From: Taurinivorans muris | Lineage (GTDB): Bacteria; Desulfobacterota; Desulfovibrionia; Desulfovibrionales; Desulfovibrionaceae | DNA length: 64,000 nt | NCBI RefSeq assembly: GCF_025232395.1 | Contig: NZ_CP065938.1 | Span: forward strand, 1,674,001 to 1,738,000 | Direction of reading: 5' to 3' | Shown here: in pieces, positions 32,237-37,383 of the stretch | How positions within the stretch are numbered: position 1 is the stretch's first letter | How the letters are laid out: each line of letters begins with the position of its first letter | Program-made: the position numbers and the translations under genes | The notes under the pieces: model-generated | The model's input: the letters and a program-made list of their open reading frames with translations, nothing else | Databases searched by the model: none | Told to the model about the DNA's origin: nothing

Positions 32237-33142
32237 TCAATCTGAAAATACCGTGCAGCCGCTTTTCTTTGCGGATTTTTTAATTTGTTCATGGTAAAAA
32301 TAATTGACAATCACTGGCGGTGCTTCAAAGGGGAGTTTTATATTGTCATTGTTTGTTGCATAATCAAGCCCGATTTTTGCGGCGTATTTTTTTAATTTCA
32401 TGTTCAGCTGTTCCCAATAATTACGGTTTCCTTTATCATAAATTTCCTGATAGAGGGGCAGCAGTTCCGGGTGGCTGTTTTGTATGTATTTCATAATTAC
32501 TGTTTTATAGTCGCCCCGCAGATTGAGATTTTCCAGCCAAATCAGATTGCAGTGTTTTTTTGCGCGCCGTATGATGGCTTTTATATCGGTAAGTTCGGGA
32601 AATATGGGAGAAATGAAGCAGGTTGTGCGGATGCCTGCCTGGTGAAACGTTTCCATTGCCGCAAGCCGCCGTTCAATACTGACCGCATTGTCCATATCAT
32701 TTTTAAAATTTTCGTCCAATGTGTTGACAGACCATGAAATACGGGCTTCGGGGAATGTTTTGAGCAAATCCAAATCCCGCAGGATTAAATCGCTTTTTGT
32801 CGCAATGCTGATTTTTATGCCGCTTCCTTTCAGCTGTTCCAGTAAGGCGCGTGTGCGCTTGTAATGCTTTTCCTGCGGCAGGTATGGGTCGGTAACGGAA
32901 CCGATAAACAATTCTTTGCCTGCATATTTTTGGGGATTGCTGATTTCAGTCCATGTTTTGACATCTAAAAACGTTCCCCATGGTTCGGTGTGACCGGTGA
33001 AGCGCTTCATGAAAGAGGCATAGCAATAGCGGCAGCCATGGGTGCAGCCCGTATAGGGATTGGCGGAATATTCGCATACGGGCAGATTGGATTTGCTGAG
33101 AATGTTTTTTGTTTGGATTTCTCTAATAAGCGGTGTGTTCAT
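32237..33142 (-). CDS. Radical SAM protein, spore-photoproduct-lyase-like family
   Basis: 301 residues of the SPL/Rv2578c-type group: a family N-terminus NPYTGCTHGCRYCYA with the C-x3-C-x2-C cluster (about residues 33-40), TDPYLPQEKHYKRTR and IATKSDLILRDLDLL. Proteins of this family are widespread in anaerobes and their substrate is unknown; true spore photoproduct repair is not expected in a non-sporulating organism. It is downstream of pncC (about 35 bases) on the minus strand and probably ends the selD operon. Confidence 0.85.
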   Translation of the reverse strand: MNTPLIREIQTKNILSKSNLPVCEYSANPYTGCTHGCRYCYASFMKRFTGHTEPWGTFLDVKTWTEISNPQKYAGKELFIGSVTDPYLPQEKHYKRTRALLEQLKGSGIKISIATKSDLILRDLDLLKTFPEARISWSVNTLDENFKNDMDNAVSIERRLAAMETFHQAGIRTTCFISPIFPELTDIKAIIRRAKKHCNLIWLENLNLRGDYKTVIMKYIQNSHPELLPLYQEIYDKGNRNYWEQLNMKLKKYAAKIGLDYATNNDNIKLPFEAPPVIVNYFYHEQIKKSAKKSGCTVFSD

Positions 33143-33177: not shown

Positions 33178-33903
33178 TCAGTCAATGAGGTTTTCATAGG
33201 CGAAGTAAAGCGCCATGAGCACGGCACTTTGGCGTATGCTTTCCCTGTTGCCTTCAAAAAGAAAATGTCTCGCCCGAGTTTCAAACGCTCCTAAGAGTAC
33301 GGGCTTGCTTTCGTTTTGCAGATAAATATGCTTCATGAGCTGGCAGGATTTGAGCCAATTTTGTTCCATGCCGTTTTCAAGCGCCTGCCCTTTTTTGATT
33401 TTGATTTTTTTGCGTAATACGGAAAAGTCCTTAGGTAAGGACAGCCCGATAAAGACAGTGCCTACCGGTTTTTCGTCATTTCCGCCGTTCGGACCGGCAA
33501 TGCCCGAAACGGACAGCCCGATATGGCTTTTGGCAGCGGAACAGACCCCGCCCGCCATTTGGCAGACAGTTGGAATGCTGACAGCCCCGAAGGTTTTGAG
33601 GACTTTTTTTTCAACGCCCAAAAGAGAATGTTTAAGCTCGTTGCTGTACGTCAAAACTCCGCCCTCAAACCATGCGCTTGCGCCGCTTATTTGCGTGACA
33701 GCGGCTCCGAGCAATCCGCTTGTGCAGGATTCAGCAACTGCCAGACGCATTTTGAATTGAGGCAGAAGAATGCCGAGTTCATGGCTCAGGCAGGCGCTCA
33801 TGCGGTAAAAATCGAAAAGCGCATTTTTGGCGGAATTTTCCGCAAGGCTTGAGCCTAATGTCTTATCTTGGGAAGCGGGCATGCCCGCTATGAAATCGCT
33901 CAT
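33178..33903 (-). CDS. pncC: CinA C-terminal domain protein (nicotinamide-nucleotide amidase)
   Basis: 241 residues of the CinA-C/PncC fold, which deamidates nicotinamide mononucleotide to nicotinate mononucleotide. The characteristic VAESCTSGLLGAAVT, SVSGIAGPNGG and KPVGTVFIGL motifs are present. An N-terminal extension of about 50 residues has no recognisable domain, so the N-terminal MoCF-like half of full CinA is absent. ATG 33903 overlaps the stop of the EamA gene by four bases, so they are translationally coupled. Confidence 0.9.
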   Translation of the reverse strand: MSDFIAGMPASQDKTLGSSLAENSAKNALFDFYRMSACLSHELGILLPQFKMRLAVAESCTSGLLGAAVTQISGASAWFEGGVLTYSNELKHSLLGVEKKVLKTFGAVSIPTVCQMAGGVCSAAKSHIGLSVSGIAGPNGGNDEKPVGTVFIGLSLPKDFSVLRKKIKIKKGQALENGMEQNWLKSCQLMKHIYLQNESKPVLLGAFETRARHFLFEGNRESIRQSAVLMALYFAYENLID

Positions 33904-34808
33904 GGAAGTTCCTTTTTCGCTTTGTATTGGCTAAGAAGCATGCCTCCCAAAATGGCGAGGGAGGCGAAATATTGTGTCGTTGTCAGGCGTTCTTCCAAAA
34001 AAAGCACGCCGATAACAAGGGTGATGACAGGAATCAGGTTGATATAGGCGGCGGCTTCCGTTGCGGAAAGCTTGGAAACGCCGTAATTATAAAAGCCGTA
34101 GCCAAGCAGGCTGACAACAACGCCCAAATAAAAAATGGAAAACAAGGGAAGCCAGTCCGGAATGGAAACATCAAGGGTGACAGGGCTGAATTCAAGAGGC
34201 AGAAAGGTGAGGGGAAGATAAAAAAGAACGCCTCCGAAGCTCATGGCTGCCGTGTAAACCCAGGGACTCATGGCGGCGGAAAGGTTACGGCAAGCGAGCG
34301 TATAGCCCACTCCGCAAAAAACCGCTCCGAGTTCAAGCATATTTCCTAAAAAAGGATTGGGAACAGCCTGGCTTGTTTCCCCGCTGAAAGAAAGCCAAAA
34401 AACGCCTAAAAAGGCGAGAATGAAGCCTGCCCATGCGTGGACGCTTTGTTTTTCCTTAAGGAATATCCAAGCGCAGAAGCCTACGCAAAGGGGCATTATG
34501 GCGAGAACCATGCCCGCTTGGGCGGAAGACGTATACCGCAGGGCGGAAGTTTCAAAAAGAAAATAAAGGCAGGGTTCGCAAAGGACACCGCCCAACAGGA
34601 CGGGGAAATTCTTCCTTGTCATATGGGTGATGAGAGGTTTGAGAAAGGGCAGGCAGATAAGGCTTGAAATAAGCATGCGTCCCGCAATGACTTCGAAAGG
34701 CGTATACGCCGTCAAAGCGAATTTCAGCCCGATGAAGGAACTCGCCCAAGCTGTCATGCCGATAACGAGGGCTAGGTGGGGAATGCATTTTTGTATGTTT
34801 AAATTCAT
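33900..34808 (-). CDS. EamA/DMT-family transporter
   Basis: 302 residues with ten hydrophobic helices in two EamA repeats (for example ALVIGMTAWASSFIGLKFAL and the second-half GFYNYGVSKLSATEAAAYIN). Drug/metabolite transporters of this type export amino acids, nucleosides or other small metabolites. It lies immediately downstream of selD (6 bases) and overlaps pncC. No substrate can be assigned from the sequence or context. Confidence 0.9.
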   Translation of the reverse strand: MNLNIQKCIPHLALVIGMTAWASSFIGLKFALTAYTPFEVIAGRMLISSLICLPFLKPLITHMTRKNFPVLLGGVLCEPCLYFLFETSALRYTSSAQAGMVLAIMPLCVGFCAWIFLKEKQSVHAWAGFILAFLGVFWLSFSGETSQAVPNPFLGNMLELGAVFCGVGYTLACRNLSAAMSPWVYTAAMSFGGVLFYLPLTFLPLEFSPVTLDVSIPDWLPLFSIFYLGVVVSLLGYGFYNYGVSKLSATEAAAYINLIPVITLVIGVLFLEERLTTTQYFASLAILGGMLLSQYKAKKELP

Positions 34809-34814
34809 GGTTCG

Positions 34815-35858
34815 CTACGCCGTTATCTTGATATGTTTGTCTTGCAGCTCTGTGACATAGCCGATTTCAAAGGCTTTATCCCCGTTGTCCTGCAAAGCCC
34901 TGCTTATTCGACATACTTTTTCCTCCGGCACCGCCAGCAAAATGCCTCCTGAGGTTTGCGGGTCGTGGCAGAGCGTGGCGATAAGCTCCGGAACGCGTTC
35001 TTCAATCTGTACGGATTGTTCCGCGTAGCGCTTATTGTCGTAACAGCGTTTGGGTATCAGCCCGTTTCGGGCGTAATCCAAAACATACCGCATGAAAGGA
35101 ATTTTTTCTTGCTGCAAAACAATGCTTTTTCGGGAAGCTTTCGCCATTTCCAAACTATGCCCGATGAGCCCGAAGCCCGTAATATCCGTGCTTGCTTCGA
35201 TTTGAAATTCCTGGATGATGCCCGCAGCGGAGTTATTCAATTTTGTCGTATGGGAAAAAAGCTCTTTTTCGGCGTTTTCCGCATTGTCCCATTTTCCCCG
35301 TATGCCGGTGCTCAATACTCCTGTTCCCAGTGGTTTTGTGAGGATGAGAATATCACCTGCATGCAGGTTTTTATTTTGGCTGAAATGGTTTTTATTGACA
35401 ATGCCCGTGACGGAAAGCCCGAAACGGAGCTCCTTGCTTTCAAGGGTATGCCCGCCGCAGGGAACGGCGCCGGCTTCAAGGGTTTTGTCAAGAGCTCCCT
35501 GCATGATTTCTTCTATGACTTCAAGGGGGGTGTCGCAGGAGGAAAAGGATAAGATGTTCATGACAGTATAGGCTTGCCCGCCCATGGCGTAAATATCGGA
35601 AAGCGCGTTGCAGGCGGCGCTTTGCCCGAACAAACGGGGATTGTTTCCGAGCGGAGCGATGATGTCGATACTTTGCACAAGCGCTTTATCCTCGTTCGGC
35701 AATGCCACGACAAAAGAGTCCTCATTGTGGCTGTGCTCGGAAAGCAGCAATGAAGAATGCTGTTTGGGCAGGAAAGACAAAAGAGCGTCCAGAACCTCCG
35801 GAGCGGTTTTTGCGCTTCAGCCTGCGTCAAGGGCTTTGCTCATCAAAGGATAGTGCAT
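34815..35858 (-). CDS. selD: Selenophosphate synthetase SelD, itself a selenoprotein (in-frame TGA = Sec14)
   Basis: Makes selenophosphate, the selenium donor for selenocysteine and selenouridine. The frame from ATG 35858 reads MHYPLMSKALDAG-U-SAK, where U is a TGA codon at 35817-35819. This aligns with the SelD active site Cys-x-x-Lys (Cys17/Lys20 in E. coli; here Sec14/Lys17), then continues uninterrupted for 333 more residues with SIDIIAPL, ALSDIYAMGG and GGHTLESKELRFGLSVTG. A stem AACC/GGTT with an 8-base loop starts nine bases after the TGA, a candidate bacterial SECIS. Callers that treat TGA as stop will start at a downstream TTG (35780) and lose the catalytic residue. It lies 7 bases after the Sel1-repeat gene. 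Confidence 0.95.
35789..35819 (-). promoter_or_regulatory. Candidate bacterial SECIS of selD
   Basis: Immediately 3' of the TGA codon on the minus strand: after nine bases AACC-(GCTCCGGA)-GGTT can form a short hairpin within the coding region. Bacterial SelB reads such elements directly downstream of UGA. The stem is short, so the structure is tentative. Confidence 0.5.
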
Positions 35859-35865
35859 TGTTTCC

Positions 35866-37383
35866 CTATTTGTTTTGCGTTGATAATTTTTGCTGCAGCT
35901 GAATTAAAATTTCACGGGCTTGCGTGTCGTTTTGTTCAGCCGCCTTTTGCAGCCAGTATTCCGCTTTTTTATAGTTTTGAAATTTCGATTTCAGCAAATA
36001 AAAAACTCCCAGATCGTACTGGGCGTCCACAAGCCCCGTATTTGCCGCGCTTTCATATAAAATATGCGCTTGGTCCAAATTCTTGGGAATGCCCAGACCC
36101 TGCCTGTACATGCCCGCCAGAAGATATTGGGCTGTGGGAAAACCTTGTTCCGCCGCTTTTGTGTACCATGCCGCCGCAATGGTTTCATTTTTAGGGACGA
36201 GAATACCGTTTTCATAAAGCAAACCCACTTGCAGCTGGGCGGGGGCATAGCCTGAATGGGCGGATTTTCGGTATAACTGTACTGCTTGTCCCATATCTTT
36301 GCTGAAGCCTGTTCCTGTTTCGTACATGGTGGCAAGTTCATACATGGAGGGGGCGTGGTCTTTGGCCGCGGCTTCACGAAAAGCGTAAATGGCGTATTTG
36401 AGGGCTTCGTCGCCTTGTCCGAACCTGCCTTTGTAATAGAGCAGACCCAAATGGTATTTTGCGTCAATGTTCCCAAGCTCGGCTGCCTGTTTGTAATAAT
36501 TTGCGGAACGCATGACATTTTGGCGGGGAGAGCCGGCTTCATACATTCTGCCGAGTTCAAGCATGGCTCTTGTATTTTTTTTGCCCGCCAAATCTTCTAA
36601 AAGCTTAAAGGCTTTGTCGATGTTTTTTTGTTCACCGGTATCGTAAAAATAGCTTCGCGCAAGGAGGATTGCCGCGTTTTCATCGCCCTGCCGGGATTTT
36701 TCTTCCAATTCTTCCCGGTTGATTTGCCGTTTGTTTTGTGCGGTTTCGTTTGCAGGATTTGAAAAGCTTGAATTGTCAGTCCGCTTTTTTGGGGAAAGAC
36801 TCCTGCTTTCCTGTTCTTGGGAGCTGAGTTCTTTTTTTGCAGCCACAATCCGCAGTTTTTGCAGGTCGTTGATATTTTGAAAAGGCTGTCCGGATTTTTG
36901 CGGGGCTGATAACAATTTGAAATTATTGGCTTGCGGCAGGTTTTGAATTTTTGCAGGGGTCGCATATTGCTGCGTGCTTTCCAAAATAAGTTTGTTCAGA
37001 TCGTCAAGGGGGATATTGTGCAGCAGCTGCGGATCTTTGACTATTTCATTGATAATGGGCTGGTAAGGGCTGTTGATTTTTCCCGTTATGGGCGCTTCGG
37101 AAGAAAATATCGTGCGCTCGAATGCCGAGGTGGGGGCCTGGCGGATGATGGTTGGCGGTTCCAAACTTTCTTGGTTTTGCAAAATAGCGAGAATATCCGC
37201 GGGAATGGCTGTGTTTTTCGGGTTCTCTTTATAGAGCTTCAAAAATTCCGCACTGACGGCATTGCCCGTATCGAAAGGCTCAAACGGGACAGGCATGGAA
37301 GCGGACCGGCTGGTTTGCGCATGAACATTTGGCACAAGGGTTAAGGAAAGAAAAAATAAATAAGGTAAAAAGTTGTTCCGCAT
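35866..37383 (-). CDS. Exported Sel1-like repeat (SLR) protein
   Basis: 505 residues. A signal peptide (FLPYLFFLSLTLVPNVHA) is followed by about 200 residues of low-complexity Gln/Pro/Ser-rich sequence and then about seven Sel1 repeats, for example ARSYFYDTGEQKNIDKAFKL, YYKQAAELGNIDAKYHLGLL and WYTKAAEQGFPTAQYLLAGM. SLR proteins mediate protein-protein contacts, often in the periplasm. It is the first gene of the minus-strand operon with selD, EamA, pncC and the SPL-like gene; a functional link to selenium metabolism is not evident. Confidence 0.9.
   Translation of the reverse strand: MRNNFLPYLFFLSLTLVPNVHAQTSRSASMPVPFEPFDTGNAVSAEFLKLYKENPKNTAIPADILAILQNQESLEPPTIIRQAPTSAFERTIFSSEAPITGKINSPYQPIINEIVKDPQLLHNIPLDDLNKLILESTQQYATPAKIQNLPQANNFKLLSAPQKSGQPFQNINDLQKLRIVAAKKELSSQEQESRSLSPKKRTDNSSFSNPANETAQNKRQINREELEEKSRQGDENAAILLARSYFYDTGEQKNIDKAFKLLEDLAGKKNTRAMLELGRMYEAGSPRQNVMRSANYYKQAAELGNIDAKYHLGLLYYKGRFGQGDEALKYAIYAFREAAAKDHAPSMYELATMYETGTGFSKDMGQAVQLYRKSAHSGYAPAQLQVGLLYENGILVPKNETIAAAWYTKAAEQGFPTAQYLLAGMYRQGLGIPKNLDQAHILYESAANTGLVDAQYDLGVFYLLKSKFQNYKKAEYWLQKAAEQNDTQAREILIQLQQKLSTQNK

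Follow-up and report, generated by a model that had tools for sequence, protein, structure and literature searches.

The selD gene of Taurinivorans muris very probably (at roughly 97%) encodes an authentic selenocysteine-containing selenophosphate synthetase, in which an in-frame UGA is decoded as residue 14. The gene lies on the minus strand of the 64,000-nucleotide stretch of DNA that was analysed, henceforth referred to as the window, and its features are collected in Table 1. The evidence comprises the reading frame and its match to the TIGR00476 family, the presence of tRNA-Sec, SelB and SelA in the genome, the occurrence of a single SelD, and the conservation of both the UGA codon and the hairpin that follows it.

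Table 1 Features of the selD locus (window positions)
Feature	Position	Strand	Basis
Upstream gene, 505 aa, weak TPR/repeat family matches, ends 7 bases before selD start	35866..37383	-	ORF list and profile scan
AGGGA, likely selD ribosome-binding site, overlaps stop codon of upstream gene	35863..35867	-	sequence read, inference
selD, selenide, water dikinase (selenophosphate synthetase), 347 aa with predicted Sec14	34815..35858	-	translation with TGA as U and TIGR00476
UGA predicted to be read as selenocysteine, residue 14, context G-U-S-A-K (AGUSAK)	35817..35819	-	2yye alignment and conservation in the order
Putative bacterial SECIS hairpin, 8 pairs, one bulged base, loop GGU at 35794-35796	35785..35804	-	fold and comparison
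EamA-type transporter (downstream), 302 aa, no curated cut-off reached	33900..34808	-	ORF list and profile scan

Read directly from the sequence, the selD frame starts at ATG 35858 and terminates at 34815-34817, and among its 347 codons the TGA at codon 14 is the sole interruption. The start, the TGA, the end of the frame and the G-U-S-A-K context had all been described in the first-pass annotation, and each was found as described. Translation with TGA as U gave a protein whose match to TIGR00476 scored 289.5 bits (cut-off 125) and covered positions 3-310 of the 311 in the profile, placing it in that family. The C/U-x-x-K motif of the N-terminal loop is present as U14-S-A-K17; we take the Cys or Sec and the Lys of this SelD loop to be catalytic. 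When aligned with the solved SelD 2yye (E 2.9e-50), the TGA codon falls on the Cys of GCAAK, in agreement with the earlier assignment of this codon to the SelD Cys-x-x-Lys site. The two proteins belong to the same family and share the same place in G-C/U-A/S-A-K, but 2yye carries Cys instead of Sec and so involves no recoding. A mechanical list of TGA read-through frames in the window contained many others; by eye, only the one at 35817 was protein-like on both sides.

Under translation table 11, the ORF list opened selD at TTG 35780 and yielded 321 aa, the truncation that had been foreseen for automated gene calling. A gene start annotated at this TTG would lose the catalytic residue. Codons upstream of the TGA were compared among five sequences of the genus, giving 54 identical, 41 synonymous and 35 non-synonymous outcomes in 130 comparisons that were not normalised; by this comparison, the codons 5' of the TGA are kept as protein within the genus.

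Conservation of the codon was assessed in the order, meaning here the genomes graded as same genus, family or order, which from their names were taken as Desulfovibrionales. A SelD match was present in 88 of 99 such genomes, own included. Two of these matches were unreadable at the codon, one being a C-terminal piece only (G018) and the other lying at a contig end (G077, L197). One further SelD was in two pieces (G002), of which the N-terminal piece (L198) was used and the C-terminal piece (L105) was set aside, as were fortuitous hits to the short motif at other places in seven loci. Among the 86 readable genes, 85 carry TGA (own included) and one carries TGC (G012, L121). Alignment to SelD relatives, which had been proposed as a check, is therefore in keeping with a conserved TGA in this group. 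A wider contig scan, in which the best 80 of 253 relatives form a sample biased towards the query, returned 42 TGA, 30 TGT/TGC and 8 that were not aligned there. An in-frame UGA is thus found where homologues have Cys, with both flanks conserved, which is a criterion for bacterial selenoproteins.

Closer relatives share the codon. SelD of sister genomes within the same genus (L102, L103, L104 and L198) has TGA at the same position as T. muris, with protein identities of 74% for L102, 70% for L103 and 55% for L104. SelD from a separate record, 'Desulfovibrio sp. isolate UBA8003' (L021), is 98% identical and contains the same TGA; the mouse-gut MAG UBA8003 has been assigned to Taurinivorans muris (PMC10507020). 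The sole readable relative in the order without TGA (L121) has TGC at the codon in an uninterrupted frame, and a hairpin with loop CGU still folds at its SECIS position. SECIS-like structures after Cys codons have been described as signs of former selenoproteins (PMC1794560), and the L121 hairpin is likely the remnant of a Sec-to-Cys change.

The genome searched was a single contig of 2,172,708 bases. The first-pass annotation had predicted selA, selB and selC outside the window and had held that a genome devoid of selB or selC would contradict its claim; all three were found elsewhere on the contig above their cut-offs. The tRNA-Sec scored 81.3 bits (gathering 47) and was given the anticodon tca by ARAGORN, SelB scored 395.7 bits (cut-off 242.25) and SelA scored 583.8 bits (cut-off 267.9). 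By these matches, the genome has a complete selenocysteine system consisting of tRNA-Sec, SelA and SelB. No second SelD exceeded the TIGR00476 cut-off in the whole genome, where two weaker matches fell below it. Assignment to the orphan SelD class, defined by a SelD unaccompanied by other known components of selenium use (PMC5029168), was rejected, given that SelA, SelB and tRNA-Sec are present in the same genome.

These data bear on three other explanations of the UGA. That the codon is a true stop, with a functional protein beginning at TTG 35780 and lacking the nucleophile, accords with the 321-aa ORF of table 11 and is nonetheless very improbable: across the order the coding sequence on the 5' side of the UGA and around it is maintained at the protein level, G-U/C-x-x-K included, the TGC-bearing relative reads straight through the same position, and a full selenocysteine system is at hand. 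Read-through with an amino acid other than selenocysteine, as proposed for the UGA-containing SPS1 genes of Hymenoptera (PMC4561486), is extremely improbable, since the sole SelD above the cut-off would have to supply SelA, SelB and tRNA-Sec, all of which are present. An assembly error at the TGA appears unlikely, and the broader proposal of a sequencing error hiding TGC or TGT, or of a decaying pseudogene, which has the presence of the stop codon and nothing more in its favor, is practically negligible, as TGA also stands in the near-identical separate record and in 84 of 85 further genomes of the order in which the codon was readable, and the remainder of the frame is intact.

The hairpin downstream of the UGA was judged as a candidate SECIS element against published bSECIS constraints (PMC13188914). 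The best-supported stem begins 12 bases after the TGA and places its apical GGU loop 20 nt after the UGA. A hairpin nine bases after the TGA had been noted in the first pass; the hairpin is there, while the distance was only roughly right. Folding of the 63 nt running from the UGA gave -15.0 kcal/mol; the isolated 20-nt hairpin reached -7.4 kcal/mol, narrowly missing the published value of -7.5. Compared to shuffled sequences, the single-sequence fold gave z of -0.25 to -0.63, with 46 to 78 of 200 shuffles folding equally well. Of the 2128 TGA trinucleotides that the window contains, 520 passed a script applying loose bSECIS-like rules, 222 of them having a GG/GU loop, so that a pass carries little weight by itself. 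The single-sequence fold was accordingly rejected as proof of a SECIS, its z being near zero and many window TGAs passing the loose rules. The fold suggested earlier as a check thus came out divided: the hairpin fits the published rules, and within this single sequence it does not exceed chance. An Rfam scan of the SECIS region returned no model, the one listing being a chance match on the other strand (E 9.8).

Comparison across relatives was more informative than the single fold. All 85 TGA-bearing genes of the order, own included, passed the bSECIS-like script. In the 83 distinct TGA sequences, 91.6% of the cells of the 8-pair stem were paired versus 89.3% on average (sd 0.28) over 1000 synonymous-codon shuffles, in which codons were swapped among sequences sharing the amino acid, and 0 of 1000 reached the observed value; this control does not keep relatedness, so that the effect sizes and the '0 of 1000' are overstated. 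By the same control, cells changed on both sides of the stem numbered 45, a value attained in none of the 1000 shuffles (mean 34.7), and the stem had 12 extra pair types versus a shuffle mean of 9.2 (reached by 1 of 1000). Sliding the stem partners by 1 to 3 positions lowered pairing to 22.7-54.2%. Mean folding energy was -17.2 kcal/mol versus -16.0 kcal/mol for shuffled sequences, the lowest of 100 shuffles being -16.6. Stem pairing is, by these comparisons, kept across relatives beyond the synonymous-codon control. Across relatives, the consensus stem frequently has a non-standard pair at its outermost position, and in T. muris the two outer consensus pairs are out of register and form only through the bulge.

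In the mechanism that we propose, ribosomes would start at ATG 35858 and reach the UGA at codon 14, where SelB and Sec-tRNA(Sec), bound to the downstream hairpin, would insert selenocysteine in place of the stop. Sec14 would then form, together with Lys17, the selenium-handling center of the N-terminal loop, and SelD would convert selenide and ATP to selenophosphate, used by SelA to load tRNA(Sec). Both the insertion and the catalysis are inferred from the SelD family. SelD would consequently require its own product for its own synthesis, and full-length SelD should therefore rise and fall with selenium supply; this dependence and response are deduced from the scheme itself.

Selenium clients were sought elsewhere in the genome with a few of the selenoprotein families, of which more than 110 have been described. 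The genome gave no match to TIGR01553 (formate dehydrogenase alpha subunit), TIGR03167 (selenouridine synthase SelU, YbbB) or PF01521 (HesB-like). One match to the molybdopterin family PF00384 was found, an uninterrupted 680-aa ORF adjoining ORFs that resemble, by eye, a multihaem cytochrome and an iron-sulfur protein; we take this ORF to be QrcB. Two hydrogenase matches (PF00374) contained no internal stop. The full-length one ends in DPCMACSVH with Cys at what is presumably the Sec position of [NiFeSe] enzymes, and Cys likewise occurs at the end of the weak match (31.6 bits). Neither the seven PF02754 (CCG) matches nor the five PF02635 (DsrE) matches had a stop inside. Every ORF at the 13 client loci checked further ends in TAA or TAG; in 6 of the 13 the frame opens after a TGA that is preceded by 1 to 20 open codons, and these TGAs were taken for ordinary 5' boundaries.

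Since no formate dehydrogenase, Sec hydrogenase, HesB-like protein or selenouridine synthase was found, SelD could be the only selenoprotein of this reduced genome or nearly so, in a selenocysteine system that chiefly serves itself and has little or no outside product. We regard this as doubtful, and a selenoprotein client that went undetected is the likelier case. The taurine-respiring mouse-gut bacterium T. muris keeps the genes of selenium metabolism, and a small question is raised by the finding that common clients (formate dehydrogenase, Sec hydrogenase) and the selenouridine route did not appear in a partial search. As a separate observation, T. muris is reported to draw electrons from formate, after a long lag and at low yield (PMC10507020), yet the TIGR01553 search gave no formate dehydrogenase alpha subunit.

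Among bacterial selenoproteins, FdhA and SelD are described as the most widespread, and for Desulfovibrio vulgaris and D. desulfuricans SelD was listed as a selenoprotein in 2006 (PMC1794560). The SelD of these related bacteria belongs to the same family and is listed as a selenoprotein, as predicted for T. muris. In the same source the two Desulfovibrio species list further selenoproteins, including three FdhA, FrhA, HesB-like and others, whereas in T. muris FdhA and HesB-like were not found by the searches above and the full-length hydrogenase has Cys. By the codon comparison within the order, a Sec-containing SelD is ordinary for the Desulfovibrionales group. None of the open-access papers searched contained both 'Taurinivorans' and 'selenocysteine', and the main text of the T. 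muris paper (PMC10507020) has no word beginning with 'selen'. The selenocysteine-containing SelD of T. muris is thus probably undescribed in these open-access papers, although proteins of this kind are well known.

The genes flanking selD were followed in 11 loci. Both neighbors are present in L021, L102/L023 and L103/L022, where L102 and L023 are apparently the same gene, as are L103 and L022. The downstream EamA-type gene alone accompanies selD in L104, the upstream gene being absent, and neither neighbor is found in L106, L107, L109, L112 and L115, which come from other genera. Beyond the transporter, a radical SAM 'mobile pair protein B' is encoded on the minus strand at window positions 32237-33142 (TIGR04470, 451.7 bits, cut-off 410), and the ORF list shows no likely partner A next to it. 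A CinA/PncC-type protein is encoded in the same gene run as selD, at 33178-33903 on the minus strand (TIGR00199, 138.9 bits, cut-off 68.9), its match spanning only residues 46-158 of 241.
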